DNA of 64,000 nucleotides, taken from positions 3,255,517 to 3,319,516 of the forward strand of contig NZ_KV917368.1 in NCBI RefSeq assembly GCF_002019605.1, in the 5' to 3' direction. The notes under the pieces were generated by a model. The model saw only the letters and a list, made by a program, of their open reading frames with translations, had not been told where the DNA came from and searched no databases. This DNA comes from Alkalihalobacterium alkalinitrilicum (GTDB lineage Bacteria > Bacillota > Bacilli > Bacillales > Bacillaceae_F). Positions within the stretch are counted from its first letter, which is position 1; each line of letters opens with the position of its first letter. The position numbers and the translations under genes were made by a program. Positions 44,402-55,505 of the stretch are shown in pieces.

Positions 44402-46987
44402 TTATGATTTTAATTTAAGCGACTCTAAATATTGCTCGAGATCATCAGCCGGTAAAGGTCGACTGTAGTAATACCCTTGACCAATAACTCCTTTAGATAG
44501 TAAAAAATCTACTTGGTCTTTGGTTTCAATCCCTTCTACGACAACATTAGAACCTAGATCCGCCCCCATCCGTATAATGGCTTCTAATAACCCTGCTGAC
44601 CTTTTATTCTTCATTACATCATGTAAAAAAGCCCGATCAATCTTTAAACTATCAATAACTATACTCTGAAGCATATTTAATGAAGAATAACCGACTCCAA
44701 AGTCATCAATCGCAACTCGCACCCCTAACATCCTTAACTGATTCACAATGTTTACTGCCTCGTTTACATCAATCATAACCCTTTCGGTAATTTCAATCTC
44801 CAAGTTACTCGGTGGAAGACCCGTTTCTTTTAACACATTTTTTACTGTTTCTATAAATGAGCGTTCCTTAAATTGACGTGCAGATACATTAACAGAAACA
44901 GGTGTTTTTAATACACCTTTATCATTCCATTCTTTACCATGCTTACATGCTTCTCTTAATACCCATTCTCCAATTTCAACTATTAGACCCGTTTCTTCTG
45001 CTATTGGGATGAATTCTGCCGGTGAAACAAATCCAAACTCTGGATTCCAACGTAATAAGGCCTCTATTCCCTTTACTCTATTTGTACTTAATTCAAATTG
45101 TGGTTGATAATGTAAAGTAAACTCCCCGTTGCCAAGTGCTTTCCGTAAAGCATTTGTGACTCGACTCTTTCGTAAGACCTGGTCATTTAAGTTATCCGAG
45201 AAAAATTGATAATTATTCTTACCGATATCTTTTGCCATGTACATAGCCAAATCGGCATTTTTTATTAGAATTTCTGCATCAAATTCGTACTCAGGGAACA
45301 TACAAACACCTATGCTTGGTGTGATAAAAACCTCGTGCCCGTGCAACTCTATAGGACTTGTTAATCTTTTGATGAGTCTTTCACAAATTATACCTGTTTT
45401 CTCTTTGTCAGTGTTTTCAACCAAAATTAGAAACTCATCTCCACCTTGTCGAGATATTAGATTATCTTTCCCTAATTGACTTTCCATGATCTTAACGAGT
45501 TTTTTTAGAACTTGGTCACCGAAATGATGTCCTAAAGTATCGTTAACATTTTTAAAATTATCGAAATCTATAAATAATATACCTAGTGAATATTTATATT
45601 CTTTTGCACTTTTAATCGCTTTATCTAACTCGATACTAAAAAGTTCACGAGTTGGAAGGCCTGTTAGAGAGTCCTTATACGCTAATTCTCTTAGTTCCTC
45701 TTCAGCACGTTTTCTCCCTGTAATATCTTGGACAAATGCGATTACATTAACAGTTCCATCATCCCTAAATACTGGTACCCCATTAACATCTATATTCACA
45801 TAGTGTCCTTTTTTATGTCTAAGAGTAAGTTCCACTCTAAGTGATTCACCATTTTTTATCCTTGTAAAAATATTGTTTACTTTTTCTAATTCAATAATCA
45901 AATCATTGATCCCTAACTTTACTAGTTCCTCTTTTTGATAACCAGTTATTTTTTCTGCAACGCTATTTACACGGTAATATTTACCCTCACTGTCTATTTC
46001 AAATATGGCATCAAGTGAATTATTATATAACGAATCAAATTTTTGTTGTGTTTGTTCTAAATCATGAACCACTATTTTAAGTTGTTCCTCTGCACGTTTT
46101 TGCTCTGTTATATCTCTTGCCATATAAACCAATCTGCTTCCTAGTCCATCTTCCTCTTGAATCGGTGTTCCTTTACCCTCAAGGTATATCCACTGCCCGT
46201 TTTTATGTTTGTAACGGAAGATTAATTTTTGTGGAGCCCCGATTTTTACTTGTTTCTCAAATACCCATATGGCATTATTAACGTCATCAGGGTGCACGAA
46301 ATCAAGCCAGTTCTTTCCCACAAGTTCAAAAGAGGAGTATCCTAAGTATTTTTCATGTGATGGAGATACATATTCATAAACCCCTTGTTGATTTAATAAA
46401 CCAACGAAGTCAGATACGTTTTCTGCTAAAAGACGATACTGTTGTTCACTTTGTTGGAGTTTCTCATTTGTTTTTTTGTGTTCAATGGCAACAGATGCTA
46501 AATGAGTAAAGTCCTCAAGAATTCCCAATTCTCGAATATTTGGTACTTTAGGTTCACCATAATATAAACCAAATGTGCCTAACACTGTTCCGTCCGAGGA
46601 TAAAATAGGTTGCGACCAATATGCTTTTAGTCCATAAGATAAGGCTAATGATTTATATTCTTTCCATAATATGTATTTTTCAATATCTTTTACAATTACC
46701 CTTTCCCTCCTATAAGCCGCTGTTCCACAAGAACCTACACTTGGACCAATTTGGGTTCCATTTAAAATCTCATTATATGATTCATCGAGGCTCGGTCCTA
46801 TCCCGTTTTCCAATGTTTGCTTTTCATCATTCAACAATAAAATGGAACAATAAGTTTTTGGGATTAGTGTTTCTATTTCTAGTGCTAGAGTTGTCAATAT
46901 TTCAGTAAGAGAGCTTCCAGTAGCAGTCATTCTCAAAACTTTGTTTTGTGCCTTTAAGGTTTGTTTATCTATTGTAATTCTACTCAT
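44402..46987 (-). CDS. Dual GGDEF-EAL signalling protein with GAF and two PAS domains
   Basis: An 861-residue cytosolic regulator of cyclic-di-GMP. Order: GAF (about 15-165), PAS (180-300), PAS (310-430), GGDEF (435-600), EAL (610-860). The cyclase motif RQGGDEF is intact. The phosphodiesterase has EALLRW, the metal-binding DDFGVGYSSL and EGIET, so both activities are possible. No I-site RxxD is seen ahead of GGDEF. No membrane segment. ATG 46987 has AAAGGG eight bases upstream. The leader contains a c-di-GMP-I riboswitch, which would tie expression to its own product. Confidence 0.92.
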   Translation of the reverse strand: MSRITIDKQTLKAQNKVLRMTATGSSLTEILTTLALEIETLIPKTYCSILLLNDEKQTLENGIGPSLDESYNEILNGTQIGPSVGSCGTAAYRRERVIVKDIEKYILWKEYKSLALSYGLKAYWSQPILSSDGTVLGTFGLYYGEPKVPNIRELGILEDFTHLASVAIEHKKTNEKLQQSEQQYRLLAENVSDFVGLLNQQGVYEYVSPSHEKYLGYSSFELVGKNWLDFVHPDDVNNAIWVFEKQVKIGAPQKLIFRYKHKNGQWIYLEGKGTPIQEEDGLGSRLVYMARDITEQKRAEEQLKIVVHDLEQTQQKFDSLYNNSLDAIFEIDSEGKYYRVNSVAEKITGYQKEELVKLGINDLIIELEKVNNIFTRIKNGESLRVELTLRHKKGHYVNIDVNGVPVFRDDGTVNVIAFVQDITGRKRAEEELRELAYKDSLTGLPTRELFSIELDKAIKSAKEYKYSLGILFIDFDNFKNVNDTLGHHFGDQVLKKLVKIMESQLGKDNLISRQGGDEFLILVENTDKEKTGIICERLIKRLTSPIELHGHEVFITPSIGVCMFPEYEFDAEILIKNADLAMYMAKDIGKNNYQFFSDNLNDQVLRKSRVTNALRKALGNGEFTLHYQPQFELSTNRVKGIEALLRWNPEFGFVSPAEFIPIAEETGLIVEIGEWVLREACKHGKEWNDKGVLKTPVSVNVSARQFKERSFIETVKNVLKETGLPPSNLEIEITERVMIDVNEAVNIVNQLRMLGVRVAIDDFGVGYSSLNMLQSIVIDSLKIDRAFLHDVMKNKRSAGLLEAIIRMGADLGSNVVVEGIETKDQVDFLLSKGVIGQGYYYSRPLPADDLEQYLESLKLKS

Positions 46988-47059
46988 ATCCATATCCCTT
47001 TCTTATTTCAATATAAATAAAATACACACCCCGTTAATAAGGATATGTTTCCCTAAAAC

Positions 47060-47137
47060 GGCACCTGGCTGGCTTAACAAAAGTTTTAGCCCCTATAGTT
47101 TAGCGTCCCCCCATTACTGAAGGTTTGTCCAGGTCAT
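47060..47137 (-). ncRNA. Cyclic-di-GMP-I (GEMM) riboswitch
   Basis: Read on the minus strand, the P1 arms ACCTGG and CCAGGT are perfectly complementary. Between them are the conserved GEMM pieces ACAAACC, GGGACGCTAAA, a TATAGGGGCTAA segment, and AGCCAGGTGCCG at the 3' side. It starts about 150 bases upstream of the GGDEF-EAL gene. No clear intrinsic terminator follows, so control could be at translation or through an alternative fold of the leader. Confidence 0.88.
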
Positions 47138-47289
47138 TTTTTTTTGATAAATATCAAAATAATACTTATAATATTAGCACTATTAACAACTTATTTCGTC
47201 AAATATCTTTTTAATTTTTCGGATAACTACCATTTCCAAAAAAAGGGAGTAAATAGGTTGTTACCCTTTTTTTACATATTTAATTTCTT

Positions 47290-47445: not shown

Positions 47446-48010
47446 ATTTCTACTATTTTCTAAATAATTTATTTACTGTCTTACTTGAAAGGAATGACTA
47501 ATAAAGTTTTAGTCATACTCTTACCTAATTTAAATCTAAATATTAACCCAATAACAATTAACTCTGTTCAATACAAAGAGATCATCTTTTACAAGGTGCT
47601 TAGGCTTTTTAAAATGTCCTTTACAAAGGGTGCACTTTAAAGCGCAACTCATTTTTTTTAAGAAAAGAGAGGAACGCCATATTTCAGCGCATATTACATT
47701 TGAATGGCTTATACTAAGACGCTCTGGGTTCAAAAGTGAAACAGTATAGCCTAGACTTTCAAGCCTTCGTAGTGAATGTCAAACAATGGATTGTTGTTTT
47801 CGCCTATCGGGGGAATCTTCTCCTAAATCGACGTACATTTCTTTACTGGTCAATAAGTAATCTCTGGCTTTTAAATACATGAATGACTGTGCAGTAAATG
47901 ACAAACAATGGGTAAAAAGTGCTATAATAAAAACTAAAAGCCCATACTTCTTGTGGAACCCTTGACACATATAAAATAAACTTAGCCAAACGTAACCGGA
48001 GGACCCCAAT
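47446..48010. other. Intergenic region upstream of the GGDEF/B12 cluster
   Basis: Mostly non-coding. A possible sigma-A promoter, ATGACA (47898-47903), 19 bases, TATAAT (47923-47928), lies 83 bases ahead of the GGDEF gene. A short near-direct repeat (AATGTCAAACAATGG at about 47773 and AATGACAAACAATGG at about 47897) spans the region. Confidence 0.4.
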
Positions 48011-48919
48011 TTGACCAAAAATGGTGATATTCTTACAATCTTTCCTTTGGTTTACATAGTTATAGACGATTCTATGACTATTAAGACGATTAGTGGTCGA
48101 AGCAATACTATGTTATCAAAGGATACTGAGTTTTTTGAGGGTAAGAGTCTTAGTCTAATACTTGACACCCCCTCTTTGTACAAATTAAAAGAGCTTTTGC
48201 AAAATGAAGAAAGTGATGAGATTACGACAGAGTTGAATTTTCAAATCGCTTTTGAAATTCATTCTTTCCAAGCTTTTATTCGAAAAATAGACAGCTTAAC
48301 TATGATTCTATTGACCCCCTTATCCCAAGAGTATTTAGACACGGTTGAAACTATAATGAAAATTAGTTCTGACCTATCACAGTTAAACTCAGAATTAATG
48401 AGGAAAAATAAGATTATTAACGAACAAAAGAAGGAACTAGAAAAATTAAGCTTTACGGATAGTTTGACAGGATTATATAATCGTAGACAGTTTAATCAAG
48501 CGATTCAAACAGAGCTTATAAAGGCTAAGCGAAAGAAGTATCCTATAACGATCCTTATGATTGATCTTAACAATTTTAAAGAGATAAACGATACCTTTGG
48601 CCATGACAAAGGAGACCATTTATTACAGGGGTTTGCAACCATAACAAAAAGACATATCCGCCATGGCCTTGACTTTGCCTTCCGAACAGGAGGAGACGAG
48701 TTCCTCCTAATATTAACAGACTGTGATGAAAAAGAAGCGATTGACATTGGAGCTAGACTTAATAAAGAATTCCAAAAAATCACGGATATTTCGTCAATCT
48801 CTTATGGTGCTGTATCAATCCCTTATGATGATGATACAAAAGTTGAAGCTTTTATCCAGGCCGCAGATCAAAAAATGTATGAGTTCAAAAAGGAGCTAAA
48901 AAGAGATGGGGCAAGGTAG
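48011..48919 (+). CDS. Diguanylate cyclase with N-terminal PAS-like sensor
   Basis: A 302-residue soluble GGDEF protein that should make cyclic-di-GMP from two GTP. Residues 1-105 look like a PAS-type domain (PLVYIVIDDSMTIKTISG), a helix (125-150) acts as a signalling linker, and the cyclase core follows: LTGLYNRRQF, LMIDLNNFKEINDTFGHDKGD and the active site RTGGDEFLL. The I-site is degenerate (RHGLD rather than RxxD at the right spacing). The start is a TTG with GGAGGA seven bases upstream. The 3' end overlaps the B12-binding gene by 14 bases. Confidence 0.9.
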   Translation: MTKNGDILTIFPLVYIVIDDSMTIKTISGRSNTMLSKDTEFFEGKSLSLILDTPSLYKLKELLQNEESDEITTELNFQIAFEIHSFQAFIRKIDSLTMILLTPLSQEYLDTVETIMKISSDLSQLNSELMRKNKIINEQKKELEKLSFTDSLTGLYNRRQFNQAIQTELIKAKRKKYPITILMIDLNNFKEINDTFGHDKGDHLLQGFATITKRHIRHGLDFAFRTGGDEFLLILTDCDEKEAIDIGARLNKEFQKITDISSISYGAVSIPYDDDTKVEAFIQAADQKMYEFKKELKRDGAR

Positions 48920-49544
48920 AATAACAGAAAATTTTTCAACTGAATATTTATCCTACTTGTTAGAGTCAAACCGGACAGAAGCACGTCGTTTAATCCTAGA
49001 TCAATTTAAACACAATATCCCAATAGAACATACGTATTTCGGAATTGAAAAGACAATGTATAAAATCGGACAAATGTGGCAACGAAATGAAATTACAGTA
49101 GCTAATGAACACCTTGCATCTGCGATTGTTCACCAAAATGTAATGGAATGTTATCAATATGTTATTAACCAGAAGCCCAAGAAAGGTCGCGTCATCACTT
49201 GTACAACACAAGAAGAATTACATGATTTGGGGATAAAATTGGTCAACCATATTCTAGAATACCAAGGTTATGATGTAATCTATTTAGGTAATAAGTTACC
49301 CATTAAAGATGCGATTCCTTTTTTCAAAAAAGAAAATCCAGATTATATTGCAATCTCTGTCACAATCTATACTCACGTTCATCATGCCAAGGAATTAATT
49401 GATAAAATTAAAAATGAACCTCAATTGAAGGATAGCAAAATCATCATTGGTGGTTACTGTTTCAAACAAAATCCCTCCTTATTAAAACTATTAAACTATG
49501 ACTGCTACATTGAAGACATAACTGATTTGGTTACGAAAATTTAG
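48906..49544 (+). CDS. Cobalamin-binding photosensor-type protein (CarH/AerR-like, no DNA-binding domain)
   Basis: A 212-residue protein with a four-helix B12-binding cap (about 15-85) and a Rossmann B12-binding domain (about 94-210). The cap has W58 and E68-H69 in MWQRNEITVANEH, the Wx9EH motif of CarH/LitR B12 photoreceptors. The Rossmann domain has ELHDLG (104-109), the ExHxxG motif whose H106 would be the lower cobalt ligand. There is no MerR-type DNA-binding domain, so it is a stand-alone sensor like AerR. The 14-base overlap with the GGDEF gene and AAGGAG inside that gene indicate co-translation and a shared pathway. Confidence 0.85.
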   Translation: MGQGRITENFSTEYLSYLLESNRTEARRLILDQFKHNIPIEHTYFGIEKTMYKIGQMWQRNEITVANEHLASAIVHQNVMECYQYVINQKPKKGRVITCTTQEELHDLGIKLVNHILEYQGYDVIYLGNKLPIKDAIPFFKKENPDYIAISVTIYTHVHHAKELIDKIKNEPQLKDSKIIIGGYCFKQNPSLLKLLNYDCYIEDITDLVTKI

Positions 49545-49729
49545 TGACAACGGGACGGTGCCTGCCTCTTTTTGGTTAAAGTTAAAAAATACCTGATTTT
49601 AGCTTGATCAACTAGGGCGACTCTCACGGTCCAACACAAATAAATGGTGAATAAATACTTAGAATCCACTTCAATATCGGAGGGACCGCTCTCGTGGAAA
49701 AAACTTTGGCAAGAAGGAGCTACTGAATC
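49545..49729 (+). other. Gap inside the B12/GGDEF cluster
   Basis: 185 bases. Partially complementary segments CTCACGGTCC and GGGACCGCTCTCGTGG (about 49622-49700) could fold into a long hairpin. AAGGAG stands 10 bases before the ATG at 49730. May contain a promoter or attenuator. Confidence 0.35.
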
Positions 49730-50035
49730 ATGTATATTGTACATTCGATTGTTACTGTACCAACTGAAAAATTAGATGAGGTCATTTCTCTATATCAAAA
49801 CCGCTCACGGTTAGTTGATCAAGCACCCGGATTCATTTCCTTTAAGCTTTTGCAAAATGATATTAAGCCAGAAGAATTGACAGTAATGATGGAATGGGAT
49901 CAAAAAGAAGACTATTTTGCATGGGTTAAAAGTTCCGACTTTAAACGTATTCATGAATTAGAAAAAAATTATCCTGATCAAGATTTAGCAGCAATTAAGC
50001 CCGTTGTAAAACGATATGAGGTGAGAGCATTTTAA
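49730..50035 (+). CDS. ABM-domain (antibiotic biosynthesis monooxygenase-like) protein
   Basis: A 101-residue dimeric alpha/beta-barrel type protein. MYIVHSIVTVPTEKLDEVIS, then QAPGFISFKLLQ and VMMEWDQKEDYFAWVKS match the ABM fold, which includes heme-degrading IsdG/HmoA enzymes. The substrate is unknown; in this setting, a tetrapyrrole such as heme or a corrinoid is an attractive guess only. The stop overlaps the next start by one base (TAATG). Confidence 0.78.
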   Translation: MYIVHSIVTVPTEKLDEVISLYQNRSRLVDQAPGFISFKLLQNDIKPEELTVMMEWDQKEDYFAWVKSSDFKRIHELEKNYPDQDLAAIKPVVKRYEVRAF

Positions 50036-50379
50036 TGGAAGAAGCACAAAATAAATTGGTCGAAGAAATAGTTGTGAAAATCTATGAGAAATATCCTGAT
50101 TTAGTTGAAAAATTTGGAGAACACGGTAAAAGGAAGACCTTTGAGGACAACATTCACCATTTTAATTCTTTGAATCTAGCTTATGAGGCAAATCATGTAG
50201 AGATATTTGTTAACTACACTATGTGGTTAAACGATGTACTTACAACTCGCGGTGTTTCTACTGAAATTATTATTGAAAATTATAATATTATTGTAGATGT
50301 TATTGAAGGAAAGCTGACTAAGGAAAGAGTAGCATTTTATAATAAAGCCATTGAGCAGGCAGTGTGGAGTTTATTGTAA
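50035..50379 (+). CDS. Hypothetical all-helical protein, possible accessory of the B12 sensor
   Basis: A 114-residue protein predicted to be entirely helical, with a KYPDLVEKFGEHGKRK loop, NIHHFNSLNLAYEANHVEIF and YTMWLNDVLTTRGVS. From memory, this layout resembles helical N-terminal segments found ahead of B12-binding or sensory modules in other bacteria; I could not verify it. Several His (HGK, IHH, NHV) could bind a cofactor. Translationally coupled to the ABM gene by TAATG, and probably last in the cluster. Confidence 0.65.
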   Translation: MEEAQNKLVEEIVVKIYEKYPDLVEKFGEHGKRKTFEDNIHHFNSLNLAYEANHVEIFVNYTMWLNDVLTTRGVSTEIIIENYNIIVDVIEGKLTKERVAFYNKAIEQAVWSLL

Positions 50380-50535: not shown

Positions 50536-52068
50536 AACTCAACTTTCGCACCTTGAAAATTGATCTTTGAGTGGGTCTATCAAAGCTTTAAGAACTATTA
50601 AGTATGTTACTTGACGAGTGCTTTTAAACAGAAAAAGCACCTGCTTCTTTGGTATAGTGGAATTGACTAGAAACCATTACCACAAAGAAGAAGTGCCTTC
50701 TCTATGATAAATGAAAAACACTCGAATGAGCAACTGCCAAATGAACTTGAATCTGTATTTTCTGAGTTACAAGTAAGGAAACACTTGCGTCAAGCAGGTA
50801 TTCAAAAAAACTTTGGGTTTTCATGTGCCTATTTGTTTCGGCTTGTTTTTTGCCTAATTTTCCATCAAAAAAATTGGTTTACCCTTGTCACATCCAAAAA
50901 GAGTGATTCTTTTCCAGGCAAAGATACCGTCTATCGATTTTTAAATCATTCCAAGTTTGCTTGGAGGAAATTTCTTTTACACTTTAGTGCGGCTACCATT
51001 CAAAAAGTCAGCATACTTACATCAAAGGACCGTCCAAAAGTGCTCATCATAGACGACTCTACGTTTGATCGTAATCGTAGTAAAAATGTTGAGTTACTTG
51101 CCCGTTGTTTTGATCACGCTTCTTTGAAAATGCGATTTTATAAAGGATTTCGAATGCTTACATTAGGCTGGTCAGACGGGCATACTTTCATACCAATTGA
51201 CTTCTCTTTACTAAGCTCAAATACATCTTCCATTAACGGAATCAATGAAGAAGTTGATAAGCGATGTTCTGGTTATAAACGCCGTACAGAAGCGTTACAG
51301 TCTGCACCTGATCAAATTCCGGCGATGATTGAACGAGCGTTATCCAAGGGAATTGAAGCGTCTTACGTATTAATGGACACATGGTTCACTCAACAACCTC
51401 TTATTAAAGCTATCGTTGAACAAGGGCTTGATGTGATTGGGATGGTGAAGAACGGCAAGCAGCGATACAACGTGAATGGACAAATGCTTTCCTTAAAACA
51501 ACTCTATCGATCTGCGACGCTACTTCAAGGAAAGAAAGGGCTTCTTCGTTCAATCACGACAACGATGGCTAATGGCGTATCCGTTAAAGTCGTGTTCGTT
51601 CAAAATCGTAATAAAAAGAGTGAATGGCTTGCCATTTTAAGCACCGATTGCACACTTTCTGAACAAGAAATTGTCCGTATTTACGGCATTCGTTGGGATA
51701 TTGAAGTGTTCTTTAAAACGACAAAGTCACTTCTTCGCTTACAAAAAGAGTTTCAAGGACGCTCGTATGACTTACTCATCAGCCATACAACGATCGTCTT
51801 CACTAGATACATTGTTCTCTCGTGGCAAAATCGTTGCCACACAAATGAGCGTACATTAGGCGGTTTATTCTATGACCTTTGTGACGAAGTGAATGAACTT
51901 GATTGGGCTGTTGCATTGCAGTAATTAATCGAGCTTCTTCAAGATGTACTGAAGAAAACGAACAAACAAACACAACAGTTACTCAAAAATCAACTGTCAC
52001 AATGGATTGCAGGTCTACCAAGTTACATCAGGGCTTACCTGCCTAATTTGGTCTGCGAAAGTTGAGTT
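50536..52068 (+). mobile_element. IS4-family insertion sequence, transposase broken
   Basis: Perfect 15-bp inverted repeats AACTCAACTTTCGCA (50536-50550) and complement (52054-52068). A 10-bp direct repeat TGCTCATTTA stands a little outside (50512-50521 and 52080-52089). It could be the target duplication, although the spacing is unequal on the two sides (14 and 11 bases). A long inverted repeat GCACCTGCTTCTTTG / CAAAGAAGAAGTGC lies just before the transposase start and would block read-through. Confidence 0.75.
50704..52065 (+). pseudogene. IS4-family transposase with premature stop
   Basis: DDE transposase with VLIIDDSTFDRN (Asp), YVLMDTWFTQ (Asp) and IYGIRWDIEVFFKTTKSLL, which is the Y-R-E-K signature of IS4. 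The frame is stopped by TAA at 51922-51924 and would otherwise run 46 codons more to 52065 (LIELLQDVLKKTNKQTQQLL onward). The catalytic residues are all before the stop, so partial activity cannot be ruled out. Confidence 0.8.
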
Positions 52069-52304
52069 AATAAGCAACCTGCTCATTTAACTTTAACTAC
52101 ATCTTTCACAAAGTAATCTAGCATAGAAGCTTCTTCTTGCGTAGTATAACGCCTACTACACATTAAAGAACGACGATTTTCTTATTCCGCCTTACTGACT
52201 CGTGAATACAATGAGCACATCTTTGAAAATAATTGAGTGTTTATGTAAATTCACAAAAGACGGTCAAGGTAAAATCACCCCCAACTAGTAGATTAAGACT
52301 TCTA
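52069..52304. other. Intergenic stretch between IS4 and the serine recombinase
   Basis: About 235 bases without a supported gene or hairpin. It probably belongs to the same mobile region. Confidence 0.3.
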
Positions 52305-53711
52305 TTAAACCTCGCATTCAATTTCCGTACCGTCCAACAAAGTCACAATAATTTTTTCTCCTTTAAATACCGTCATCTTTTCAATTAGCTTAAAGTATAA
52401 ATCTATATCAAACTCTGTTAATGTTGTAGCTTCCTTGAAAATTTCAATAAACTGTTCTGTTTTATATTTTTTTAGAAGATTGTCGCTTCCTTGCTGTCTC
52501 CACTTATTTATAAAGTGATCTTTATTTTCTAGTATGACGTTAAATACATTTATAAAGGCTTGGTATAAAGTTCTATCATCTGTATGCTTATTCTCACAGC
52601 TCTTTTCACCTTTAATAGTGTATTTTCTGTTGCATCTCCAGATTTTCCTTCTTAGCGTTTCGTTTGTAGAGTTCCAAACCTTTCTGCCAAATGGACTGTC
52701 GCAATGGCCACATAAAACTCTTCCTGCAAAAGGATTATCAATCGTAGCATAATCAACTTTTACAATCCCATGTTTCTCAGCAAAGGCTCGCCTTCTCTCC
52801 ATTTCTAGCTGAACCGCTTCCCACATGTCTTTTGGGATAATCGCTGGATGGCTTTCTTCGACATAGTACCTTGGAATTTGGCCGGTATTTTGTACTCTCT
52901 TTTTTGTCAGATAGTCGACTGTATAAGTCTTTTGCAGGAGAGCATCACCTTTATACTTTTCATTACTAAGCATTTTCCTTATGCTGCTTTCATACCATTT
53001 GGCTTTGCCGTTCCAGTTTGGAACACCATCTTCCTCAAGCTCTCTTGCTATCCTGTTCGGTCCCTTTCCATCCAGATAGTCTTTATAAATTCTTCTTACT
53101 ATCTTAGCTTGCTTTTGATTAACGATAAGGTTGCCATCCTCATCTTTGTCATAACCCAGGAATTTTGTATGGTTAACTGCTACTTTTCCCTGTTCAAACC
53201 GCCGCCTAATTCCCCAGGTTGAATTTTCCGAAATTGATCTACTCTCATCTTGGGCTAGACTGGAAAGGATACTTAACAAAACTTCACCCTTGGCATCTAA
53301 TGTGTTAATGTTTTCTTTCTGAAAAATAACGCCAATTCCTAAGTCCTTCAGTTGCCTGACAAAATTCAAGCAATCTAGGGTGTTTCTTGCAAATCTTGAT
53401 ATTGATTTTGTAATGATCATGTCTATCTTTTTTTCCTTGCAGTCCTTAATCATTTTATTGAACTGCTCTCGCTTTTTCGTATTAGTTCCTGATATTCCTT
53501 CATCTGCGTAAATTCCTGCTAGTTCATAGTCGGGGTGGCTTGAAATGTAACTTGTATAATACTCAACTTGGGCTTCATAACTTGATAACTGTTCTAATTG
53601 GTCTGTCGACACTCGGCAATAAGCCGCCATCTTCTTTTTCTGTGGCTCTAACTGTTCTGAGTTGTTCAGGCAGGTTGCTCTTGCTGGTATAACTGTAATG
53701 TTTCTTGCCAT
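52305..53711 (-). CDS. Large serine recombinase
   Basis: A 468-residue site-specific recombinase. The resolvase domain has the nucleophile Ser in AAYCRVSTDQLEQLSS (about 29-44), then GIYADEGISGTNTKKR, ITKSISRFARNTLD and SSLAQDESRSISE. It is followed by the recombinase domain (FLGYDKDEDG onward) and a zinc ribbon (CGHCDSPFGRK and CNRK...C). A short coiled coil precedes the C-terminus. Such proteins integrate and excise phages and conjugative elements. It looks complete. Its first 45 codons overlap the 3' end of the truncated upstream recombinase in another frame. Confidence 0.88.
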   Translation of the reverse strand: MARNITVIPARATCLNNSEQLEPQKKKMAAYCRVSTDQLEQLSSYEAQVEYYTSYISSHPDYELAGIYADEGISGTNTKKREQFNKMIKDCKEKKIDMIITKSISRFARNTLDCLNFVRQLKDLGIGVIFQKENINTLDAKGEVLLSILSSLAQDESRSISENSTWGIRRRFEQGKVAVNHTKFLGYDKDEDGNLIVNQKQAKIVRRIYKDYLDGKGPNRIARELEEDGVPNWNGKAKWYESSIRKMLSNEKYKGDALLQKTYTVDYLTKKRVQNTGQIPRYYVEESHPAIIPKDMWEAVQLEMERRRAFAEKHGIVKVDYATIDNPFAGRVLCGHCDSPFGRKVWNSTNETLRRKIWRCNRKYTIKGEKSCENKHTDDRTLYQAFINVFNVILENKDHFINKWRQQGSDNLLKKYKTEQFIEIFKEATTLTEFDIDLYFKLIEKMTVFKGEKIIVTLLDGTEIECEV

Positions 53712-54295
53712 CCTTTATAACCTCCTTCACAATGGTTTCTTCTTTTATATTGAGCCTGCCAACAACTTCATCATCGATTCTATTCCCTGAGCAAGCGTTT
53801 TTTCCATTTTTGATATAGTTGCTGCATTGCCATACAATTTTTCTACAGGGAAGCTTACTGTTCCAAGTTCGTCTTTTTAATGTTGAACCACATTTTCCAC
53901 AGAATAACTTTCCTGTGAGGGGATATCTTGTTTGGTACTTTGTTCGATCTCCCACGTTCCCCTTAGCTTGAGCCCTAGATTCCCTCTCTTTTTGAACCTC
54001 ATCCCACATTTTTTCTGGAATAATCGGTGGATGGTTATCTTCAATGTAATAGCTATCCACTTTACCATTATTTCGAATGGTTCCTTTCCTCAAATGGTCT
54101 GGTGTATAGTATTTTTGCAATATGGCAGCTCCTTTATATTTTTCGTTTTTAAGAACATTCAAGATTGTACTTTCCTGCCATTTTCCACCTGCTACTGTAG
54201 GAGTGTAAGCTGCATTTAATTCTTTAGCTATCGTAAAGGCCCCTTTCCCCTTTAGATAATCCTTAAAAATCCTCCTGACTATCTCTGGATAGGCT
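53575..54295 (-). pseudogene. Truncated large serine recombinase
   Basis: Only the recombinase and zinc-ribbon regions remain: YPEIVRRIFKDYLKGKG, ESTILNVLKNEKYKGAAILQ, ENHPPIIPEKMW-like segments and CGKCGSTLKRRTW. The N-terminal resolvase domain is missing, cut at about 54295 where the IS3-family element begins, and is not found on the other side, so the IS insertion came with a deletion. Confidence 0.75.
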
Positions 54296-54363
54296 ACACT
54301 TAGTTGGACAATAAAAATAAGGGCTAGTAGAATAACATATAACGAGTGAGGAGCGAATCTACT

Positions 54364-54645
54364 ATGTCCAAAAAAAGAAGAACGTTTACCACAGAATTCA
54401 AGAAGCAAGTGGTTGCTTTATATGAAGGTGGAAAAAGTCGTCAAGATATTGTCCGTGAATATGAATTAACTCCGTCTGCTTTAGACAGGTGGATTACTCA
54501 GTTTCAACAGTCTGGTTCCTTCAAAGAGAAAGACAATCGAAGTCCAGAGGAACAAGAATTGATTGAGTTAAGAAAAAGAAATAAACAGCTAGAAATGGAA
54601 GTCGATATTTTAAAGCAAGCCGCGCTGATCATGGGGCGAAAATAG
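54364..54645 (+). CDS. IS3-family transposase OrfA
   Basis: A 93-residue DNA-binding subunit. RRTFTTEFKKQVVALYEGGK and LDRWITQFQQSG form the HTH; KRNKQLEMEVDILKQAALIM is the leucine-zipper helix. GAGGAG precedes ATG 54364. It ends at CGA-AAA-TAG, where a -1 slip would join orfB. Confidence 0.9.
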   Translation: MSKKRRTFTTEFKKQVVALYEGGKSRQDIVREYELTPSALDRWITQFQQSGSFKEKDNRSPEEQELIELRKRNKQLEMEVDILKQAALIMGRK

Positions 54646-55505
54646 AAGTCATTGAGAAAAATCGGCACTTCTATTCGGTATCAGCAATGTGCAAAGTCCT
54701 ACAAATAGCTCGAAGCACCTTTTATTATGAAACAGAAGTAGCTGCTCAAAAAGAAAAGGAAAAGGCTACAGAAGAACAAGAATTAAAAGAAAAAATACTA
54801 AAAATCTTTAATGAAAACCGTAAAGTATATGGAACTCGTAAAATAAAACGAGAGCTTTTAAAAGCGGGTCACAAGGTTTCCAGACGTCGCATAGGAAGGT
54901 TGATGAAAGAGCTCGGAATCCAATCGAAGTATGCACAACCTTCCTACAAACCAATGAGCTCTCAGCCAAATGAAGAATCCGTTCGAAACATATTAGATCA
55001 GGAATTCCAAGTGAATGAAGAAATGTCCGTACTGGTTAGTGATTTAACGTACGTCAAAGTAGGACATTATTGGAGCTACGTCTGTTTTTTAATTGATTTA
55101 TATAATAGAGAAATAGTTGGTTATAGCGTTGGAAAACGCAAAGACGCAGCTTTAGTTCAACGCGCCTTCGCAACGGTTAATCGGCCATTAGAGAATGTAA
55201 AACTCTTTCATACAGATCGCGGATCTGAGTTTAAAAACGTAGCTATTGATGAATTATTAAGTGAAAATGAGATTGAACGTTCATTGAGCGATAAAGGAAA
55301 CCCTTATGATAATGCAGTGGCAGAAGCGACATTTAAGATTCTAAAAACAGAACTAATTCATGGGGAGCAGTTCCATTCCCTTAACCACCTAGAACTTGAA
55401 CTGTTTGATTATATCAATTGGTACAATAACATCCGTTCGCACAGTGCCCTGGGGTATCAAAGTCCAGCAAGTTATCGAAACTTAGCCCCTAAAAAAATTG
55501 TTTGA
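54642..55505 (+). CDS. IS3-family transposase OrfB (DDE integrase)
   Basis: The frame opens about 15 codons before the ATG at 54687, overlapping the orfA stop region, as expected for an OrfAB fusion made by -1 frameshifting at AAAAT. The core has VLVSDLTYVKVG (Asp), LFHTDRGSEFKN (Asp) and SDKGNPYDNAVAEATFKILK (Glu). Intact, so the element may still move. Confidence 0.9.
   Translation: MEVIEKNRHFYSVSAMCKVLQIARSTFYYETEVAAQKEKEKATEEQELKEKILKIFNENRKVYGTRKIKRELLKAGHKVSRRRIGRLMKELGIQSKYAQPSYKPMSSQPNEESVRNILDQEFQVNEEMSVLVSDLTYVKVGHYWSYVCFLIDLYNREIVGYSVGKRKDAALVQRAFATVNRPLENVKLFHTDRGSEFKNVAIDELLSENEIERSLSDKGNPYDNAVAEATFKILKTELIHGEQFHSLNHLELELFDYINWYNNIRSHSALGYQSPASYRNLAPKKIV

Follow-up and report, generated by a model that had tools for sequence, protein, structure and literature searches.

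The stretch of DNA analyzed here, referred to as the window, comprises 64,000 nucleotides from Alkalihalobacterium alkalinitrilicum and carries on its forward strand a set of four genes spanning positions 48011-50379. In order, these genes encode a diguanylate cyclase with a GGDEF domain, a stand-alone B12-binding protein of the photocobilin/CarH type, a protein of the ABM fold resembling HmuQ and IsdG, and a five-helix, photoglobin-like globin of the bilin type. The cyclase gene (48011-48919) is preceded by a GGAGG ribosome-binding site (47998-48002, forward strand), located 8 nt before its TTG start, and its end overlaps the B12 gene (48906-49544) by exactly 14 nt, as had been stated in the original prediction from the sequence. 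The next gene, for the ABM protein (49730-50035), follows after a gap of 185 nt and has one base in common with the globin gene (50035-50379). The two-gene unit proposed earlier therefore stands as a pair of cyclase and B12 protein but falls short in extent, since the ABM and globin genes (49730-50379) continue the set. A consensus scan of the forward strand detected no terminator-like hairpin between the four genes, and one was placed after the globin gene (50618-50640, forward strand), a weak assignment given that three such sites occur in the region against 1.5 expected by chance.

On the reverse strand, a divergent gene (44402-46993) encodes, according to Pfam, a GAF-PAS-PAS-GGDEF-EAL protein of c-di-GMP turnover, and by position it lies downstream of a c-di-GMP-I riboswitch aptamer (47057-47139, reverse strand; Rfam RF01051, 51.7 bits against a gathering score of 35) in its leader. 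This riboswitch, located approximately 0.9 kb from the start of the cyclase gene, is one of six c-di-GMP-I riboswitches in the genome and the lowest-scoring among them. The region at 50704-55505 contains a DDE_5 transposase and an integrase-core transposase along with two recombinases, of which one is a full serine recombinase and the other lacks the N-terminal Resolvase domain of Pfam; on account of these transposase and serine-recombinase genes a horizontal gain of the operon is considered likely. In the three remaining genomes of the genus, the B12 protein finds no match better than an E-value of 7.2e-15, although G001 and G002 have their own ABM-globin pairs (L070 and L072). A stretch of the G001 locus recurs exactly in L115, from Alkalihalobacterium chitinilyticum, which places the window in this genus. 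A scan of the window for tRNA genes and a plasmid search with the whole operon returned no match.

The B12-Binding Protein

The B12 protein starts with ATG and consists of 212 residues, in which Pfam recognizes only B12-binding_2 (8e-8) and B12-binding (4.3e-17); no DNA-binding domain, MerR-type or other, was found by Pfam, in agreement with the earlier reading. By family, its fold is expected to combine a helical cap with a Rossmann fold. Its characteristic motifs are G55-x-x-W58, E68-H69, H106 as the lower ligand, and G128-x-x-x-P132, and the residues singled out in the original prediction, namely W58 and E68-H69 in the Wx9EH spacing together with E104, H106, and G109, are all present as described. 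Across an alignment of 98 B12 segments, with gaps set aside, W58 and E68 are each retained in 96 of 96 rows and H106 in 95 of 95; H69 is kept in 95 of 96 and E104 in 90 of 94, a degree of conservation indicating that these residues do not occur by chance.

Several characteristics distinguish this protein from CarH. Directly after W58 stands Q59, and SasPcob likewise has Q at the aligned position. Of the 98 rows, 85 have E in this column and 6 have Q, with H and K found twice each, L once, and gaps in two. In Thermus CarH the residue directly after the W is His132, an additional ligand of the light state. The light state of CarH is described as bis-His in the available passages of PMC10979010, and the second His of that state is not present in the B12 protein. 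A light signature composed of GxxW, EH, GxxH, and GxxxP has been published (PMC11796333, in the parts accessible); the GxxW, EH, and GxxxP elements are found in the B12 protein, and the GxxH position reads ExxH, which is counted against the interpretation as a split photocobilin. The G of this element occurs in 32 of the 98 aligned rows.

In a ranking by sequence against the PDB, the photocobilin chains 8j2w, 8j2x, and 8j2y, together with the uncharacterized entry 8jbs, are placed above CarH, and the NCBIfam CarH model yields 56.8 bits against a cut-off of 400. The earlier classification as a CarH-type photosensor thus holds as far as the photoreceptor-type B12 residues are concerned, and CarH gives way to the photocobilins as the closest relative by sequence. 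A stand-alone CarH/AerR protein as the full account of the locus was rejected, as it misses the globin and the ABM protein and as photocobilin chains outrank CarH.

Separate B12 proteins of 308-310 residues were also observed, one in the same genome (L016, G000:C1:2184377-2184958) and one in the same genus (L017). Inspected by eye, L017 combines a MerR-type HTH with a B12 domain and has WE instead of WH before the EH motif; as L016 groups with L017, a MerR-type B12 protein apart from that of the operon appears to be encoded in the genome.

The Globin and Its Predicted Bilin Pocket

The globin reaches 13.8 bits with the Pfam Phycobilisome family (PF00502), below the cut-off of 22.2, and its AlphaFold model has five helices with a pLDDT of 95.6. 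Among the best 50 of 694 Foldseek matches, the leading PDB entries are allophycocyanins and phycocyanins, with a best E-value of 0.011 and none below 0.001; phycobiliproteins and smURFP reach TMq values of 0.71-0.86, compared with 0.49-0.72 for heme globins, and photocobilin chains are not found among these best 50. A phmmer search of the PDB with the globin alone returned only chance-level matches. A profile built from 29 globins performed better against 177,635 sequences, with phycocyanin at the top (E 0.018), followed by the photocobilins 8j2y, 8j2x, and 8j2w (0.024-0.07), all of these E-values being modest.

In the biliverdin pocket of SasPcob, D270 is a key residue and W296 contacts ring D, and AbPcob, which binds biliverdin weakly, has His at the place of D270 (PMC10979010, in the passages available). 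The Trp61 of that paper corresponds to chain index 55, hence D270 and W296 of SasPcob correspond to indices 264 and 290. In the profile alignment, D38 and W64 of the globin fall on these two residues, and the AbPcob chain has His there. Within an alignment of 151 globins, D38 is retained in 150 rows and W64 in all 151, while H42 is likewise kept in 150. The motif CXRD is given as phycobiliprotein-type in the accessible parts of work on BBAG proteins (PMC10151467); its Cys position is occupied by C in 95 and by T in 53 of the 151 rows. Since the globin of the window has T at this position, a thioether link to a bilin is not predicted for it. Judging from these alignments and the structural model, the globin is probably of the bilin type, phycobiliprotein-like, and a predicted bilin binder.

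The ABM Protein and the Possible Source of the Pigment

The ABM protein has the ABM fold by sequence (Pfam ABM, 1.5e-14), and its best NCBIfam match is HmuQ (E 3.1e-10), which at 40.3 bits stays below the cut-off of 130. Enzymes of the IsdG type require an Asn, a Trp, and a His (PMC6018153 and PMC5557675, as far as their text was accessible). When the ABM protein is aligned with IsdI, 8avh, and TT1380, the Trp and His are preserved as W65 and H75, and the column of the catalytic Asn contains Ser (S6). The same pattern prevails throughout 147 aligned rows, where the Asn column holds S in 141, with one A, one T, and four gaps (S in 141 of 143 residues), the W65 column holds W in 134, Y in 9, a single S, and three gaps, and the H75 column holds H in 145 rows besides two gaps. 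The designation of this protein as a true IsdG heme oxygenase was rejected as unproven, the catalytic Asn being missing.

No match to the heme oxygenase family PF01126 was obtained in the whole genome, and a Pfam scan of 11 window ORFs detected no bilin reductase. Searched with the operon-type ABM profile, the genome yields one further ABM protein (L204, G000:C1:2996043-2996282; P0001), in which the N, W, and H are in place. Based on the Ser in the Asn column, the occurrence of an N-W-H paralogue elsewhere, and the lack of a PF01126 match, the operon ABM protein may represent a modified heme oxygenase or else carry heme or bilin. The Ser substitution and the lack of PF01126 in the genome are at the same time counted against the split-photocobilin interpretation, as they bear on the source of the bilin. 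A scan of viral contigs with the ABM alignment gave 43 pattern matches, none of which was confirmed.

The Cyclase and Its Probable Input Domain

The cyclase consists of 302 residues organized into an N-terminus of PAS fold (approximately 1-105), a long helix (106-144), and a GGDEF domain (148-295). The GGDEF domain is recognized by Pfam with an E-value of 2.7e-40, and the active-site GGDEF motif is intact, which supports the earlier identification of the partner as a c-di-GMP synthase; the motif read-out found no RxxD inhibitory site. The AlphaFold model of the N-terminus, built on an alignment that included STAS partners of related loci, displays the PAS fold and the long helix with a pLDDT of 86, and its top Foldseek matches are PAS domains of bacteriophytochrome and PpsR entries, with 31 matches at E <=0.001.

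The N-terminal 140-150 residues of the different partner types were compared as profiles with hhalign, the cyclase type being represented by 3 sequences and the STAS type by 42. The N-termini of these two types are homologous (probability 95.5, E 1.5e-8), and so are those of the STAS type and the Metabacillus-type kinases (probability 99.8, E 3.7e-29). No signal was obtained between the cyclase type and either kinase set (probability 2.3 and 0.7), no homology between the STAS type and the Paenibacillus kinases (2.3), and the control comparison of the cyclase-type N-terminus with the STAS C-terminus gave a probability of 0.1. In our reading, one PAS-type input domain takes the signal of the B12 protein and carries different outputs, and the point at which the B12 protein contacts the cyclase is probably this PAS domain.

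Distribution of the Gene Set

A search of the order with the globin profile gave matches in 167 of 397 genomes at an E-value of 0.01. The resulting census comprises 150 loci, namely 149 listed globin matches (flanks of approximately 3.2 kb, seven of them shortened by contig ends) and the window, weaker unlisted matches being excluded, and gene labels were assigned with small home-made HMM profiles and fixed gap rules. Under these rules an ABM gene lies directly upstream of the globin gene in 145 of the 150 loci, the exceptions being L315, where the ABM gene is present outside the rule, L335, L336, L340, and L345. Similarly, among 80 named loci found through the ABM protein (80 of 268 kept), a globin ORF follows in all except L093 and L142, that is, in 78.

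A B12 gene is located on the same strand within approximately 3 kb in 92 of the 150 census loci, directly downstream of the globin gene in 83 of these. The other 58 loci lack a same-strand B12 gene within reach, and 37 of them consist of the ABM-globin pair alone. These 58 loci, together with a B12-cyclase pair in G200, which is outside the genomes listed with a globin match, indicate that the parts can live apart. In one genome (G032), a B12 gene was observed approximately 157 kb away on the same contig.

The gene beside the B12 gene in these 92 loci encodes a STAS protein in 76, a histidine kinase in 6, and a GGDEF protein in 1, the window, with no partner by rule in the remaining 9. Two of these nine (L208 and L262) have a STAS gene just outside the rule, one (L353) has a GGDEF gene after the globin gene, and six remain without a partner. 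Four loci from four genomes of genus g62 (L253, L267, L281, and L309) display the order ABM-globin-B12 with no rule partner beside the B12 gene. Read by eye, L039 contains a B12 gene, then a short PAS-like protein with neither GGDEF nor STAS seen, and then a carbonic-anhydrase-like gene. With 2 of the 92 listed globin loci with B12, window included, the cyclase version is rare; the genome survey for the same gene pair called for by the original prediction thus revealed that the B12-GGDEF pair recurs, yet with the cyclase as a rare partner.

The named loci provide a closer view of the partner genes. In 51 of 53 cases the B12 gene is followed by a same-strand gene belonging to one single-linkage cluster, and the two genes overlap in 47 of the 51, by 11 nt in 17 and by 14 nt in 6 when the most upstream start is taken. 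The partners are of STAS length in 42 and of kinase length in 7; Pfam detected STAS in the two partners tested for it (2.8e-8 and 8.9e-6) and kinase domains in L105, L094, and L097. The order in the window is reversed relative to these loci, the cyclase gene preceding the B12 gene.

Cyclase Pairs, Fusions, and the Tree of B12 Proteins

Among the inspected loci of the order, cyclase and B12 genes are neighbors in the window, in G200, in G245, where the cyclase frame is broken, and in G106, where the globin-B12 frame contains a stop. In addition, Alkalibacillus almallahensis (G170, locus L146) carries B12, ABM, globin, and cyclase genes in one run, of which the first three overlap and the cyclase gene follows 13 nt further on. 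Another genome (G327) has the order B12-ABM-globin, with no cyclase gene in the 12-kb stretch read. An ArsR-like regulator gene, recognized by eye, is situated beside the B12-ABM-globin genes in both G327 (L352, 4644-4985, reverse strand) and G170 (L146, 4856-5203, reverse strand), and an ion-transporter-like gene comes after the ArsR-like gene in G327 and in L036 of G170.

Globin and B12 domains are also found within a single ORF, as in Paenibacillus (L096, L097, and L099). Among 23 class-level loci (L174-L196), all from family f50, the fusion is present in 22, a histidine kinase follows in all 23, and an ABM gene occurs within the 1.5-kb flanks in only 2, the last count weighing against the split-photocobilin interpretation. 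The family f50 is taken for Paenibacillaceae, as the named Paenibacillus rows fall among its members in the tree. At the level of the phylum, matches were obtained in 9 of 299 genomes, 4 of them outside the class, and in 3 of these 4 (G853, G915, and G939) a fused globin-B12 gene is followed by a GGDEF gene. As B12-cyclase neighbors recur both inside the order (G170, G200, G245, and G106) and outside the class (G853, G915, and G939), the case in which B12 orthologues always occur without a GGDEF neighbor is excluded.

A maximum-likelihood tree of 124 B12 rows was rooted at its midpoint and has long branches; G106 was left out owing to its broken frame. The STAS and kinase types together with six rows without a partner form a clade of 87 rows (support 98/100). 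Outside this clade, the window groups with G245 (91/96), and G170, G327, and G200 group together (90/85), both groups being placed alongside the f50 fusions and outgroup rows. A very long branch carries the MerR-type rows, which are placed within the fusions. The cyclase label needs three changes on this tree, which accordingly does not establish a single origin.

Interpretation of the Locus

The four genes are best explained, with a probability of about 0.63, as a photocobilin, a photoreceptor using both B12 and a bilin, whose parts are distributed over separate subunits, with a diguanylate cyclase as the coupled output. A split photocobilin is probable, rather than a CarH protein minus its DNA-binding domain, because of the phycobiliprotein-like globin with the pocket Asp and Trp of SasPcob. 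The gene associations of the census, the globin-B12 fusions, the homology between the N-termini of the cyclase and of the STAS partners, and the published activation of a cyclase by light-state photocobilin also speak for it. Besides the points named above, it is opposed by the modest Foldseek E-values of the globin and the lack of photocobilin chains among the best 50 matches, by the 58 census loci with no same-strand B12 gene and the B12-cyclase pair of G200, by the missing signal between cyclase-type and kinase-type N-termini, by the 185-nt gap between the B12 and ABM genes, and by the three changes of the cyclase label on the tree. The B12 protein would hold adenosylcobalamin with H106 below the cobalt and with W58 and E68-H69 around the adenosyl group, and the globin would hold a linear tetrapyrrole through D38 and W64 and dock on the B12 protein in the manner of the fused globin domain of SasPcob, the ABM protein supplying or handing over the pigment. 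Green light, acting through B12, or red light, acting through the bilin, would break the Co-C bond, after which the altered B12 protein would directly contact the PAS domain of the co-made cyclase and the long helix would relay the change to the GGDEF dimer. The riboswitch ahead of the divergent GGDEF-EAL gene may sense the c-di-GMP product; no c-di-GMP riboswitch was found in 10 relative loci, so the link between riboswitch and cyclase is drawn from the window. In this account the gene set, the homologies, the residues, the exchange of domains between outputs, and the riboswitch match are observed, and the bound pigments, the response to light and its direction, the contact partner, and the coupling to the riboswitch are inferred.

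The direction of the response can be considered by analogy. In AbDPcob, a fusion of cyclase and photocobilin, adenosylcobalamin inhibits in the dark and light brings a gain in turnover of more than 10-fold, and an isolated cyclase is activated in trans by light-state AbPcob and by holo SasPcob (PMC10979010). Such control in cis and in trans makes it plausible that the same logic operates from separate genes, with the cyclase of the window probably inhibited in the dark and activated by light. SasPcob without biliverdin acts on the cyclase with the opposite sign (PMC10979010), a warning that the direction of the response hinges on the bilin subunit.

Among the alternatives, the set might respond not to light but to B12 status, oxygen, or the redox state, the supply of adenosylcobalamin or the oxidation of cobalt switching the cyclase and the bilin or heme part adding an input from oxygen or heme degradation. 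The kinship of such B12 domains with metabolic corrinoid proteins, which provide the best-scoring NCBIfam models, and the suggestion of heme breakdown in the HmuQ/IsdG-like ABM protein speak for this account, which is nevertheless regarded as unlikely: W58 and E68-H69 match the adenosyl contacts of SasPcob (PMC10979010, as far as available) with the near-complete conservation given above (95-96 of 96), two MetH-type rows (L024 and L026) lack these residues, and a globin of the bilin type makes most sense with light. The retention of H42 and the heme-type partner gene, along with the Phycobilisome score below the cut-off, could instead point to a globin that binds heme, the ABM-globin pair being a heme or gas module recruited beside a B12 sensor; the higher TMq values for phycobiliproteins and smURFP than for heme globins among the best 50 matches and the conservation of the two bilin-pocket residues of SasPcob (D and W) render this very improbable.

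It is also conceivable that a CarH/AerR-like protein gates the cyclase through B12 only, with the ABM-globin pair as an unrelated neighbor. The layout of the window, in which the 14-nt overlap joins only the cyclase and B12 genes and the 185-nt gap separates them from the ABM gene, would fit such an arrangement, as would G200 and G245, where B12 and cyclase genes occur without globin or ABM genes alongside. This explanation is improbable in view of the association of ABM-globin with a photoreceptor-type B12 gene in 92 of the 150 census loci, the existence of globin-B12 fusions, and the single run of B12, ABM, globin, and cyclase genes in G170.

Beyond the window, the split photocobilin may be an instance of a widespread three-protein photoreceptor of non-photosynthetic Bacillota, an extension offered tentatively and at somewhat below even odds. 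It would consist of the B12 protein, the bilin globin, and an ABM protein making the pigment by new chemistry with Ser in place of Asn, with the output swapped between stressosome-type STAS protein, histidine kinase, and cyclase behind the input domain of the partner; the window would represent the cyclase version, its riboswitch closing a feedback loop from light to c-di-GMP. The conserved gene neighbor names the likely output of each sensor, being STAS in most Bacillaceae-type loci seen, kinases in others, and cyclases in few. In many Bacillota seldom studied for light, such a system would connect c-di-GMP or stress control with light, and it would offer a genetically simple, separable green/red light switch together with a candidate pigment source.

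Comparison with Known Systems

Separate B12 and globin genes are already known from deltaproteobacteria (PMC10151467), as is a light-switched cyclase from AbDPcob (PMC10979010). Within the openly licensed literature, covered through titles, the beginnings of abstracts, and passages, no account was found of such a split set in Bacillota, be it with ABM, STAS, or cyclase; Schneider and others 2022 (photoglobin) may describe part of this neighborhood.

The photocobilins SasPcob and AbDPcob (PDB 8j2w, 8j2x, and 8j2y) resemble the window in their B12 domain with W, EH, and a lower-ligand His, SasPcob also in its bilin-type globin with Asp and Trp, and AbDPcob in its diguanylate cyclase as the output (PMC10979010). 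Those characterized are single fused proteins, the function of stand-alone ones being called less clear in the same work, whereas the window has B12 protein, globin, and cyclase as three genes with an extra ABM gene, and its cyclase carries a PAS-like domain common to the STAS partners. The BBAG-2/pre-2 clusters of deltaproteobacteria and the globin-HO-B12 clusters of Myxococcales likewise have separate B12 and globin genes beside bilin-synthesis genes, and the two BBAG-2 proteins tested bind biliverdin (PMC10151467, in the parts available). The BBAG-2/pre-2 clusters contain a pre-PcyA bilin reductase, with a heme oxygenase in some (PMC10151467), while the window contains an ABM gene, no bilin reductase among the 11 ORFs scanned, and a signaling output gene beside the sensor.

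CarH/LitR proteins, represented by Thermus CarH (PDB 5c8a and 5c8d), share the Wx9EH motif and the His lower ligand; the B12 protein of the window differs in having no MerR domain, a Q for the second His, and a globin and a cyclase as partners. With IsdG and HmuQ, the operon ABM protein has in common the ABM fold and the heme-ligand His and Trp, and it departs from them in the Ser that replaces the catalytic Asn. STAS sensors of the RsbR/YtvA type in Bacillus join an input domain to a STAS output. The partner genes of most relatives follow this same architecture of input domain and STAS, whereas the window has GGDEF in place of STAS.
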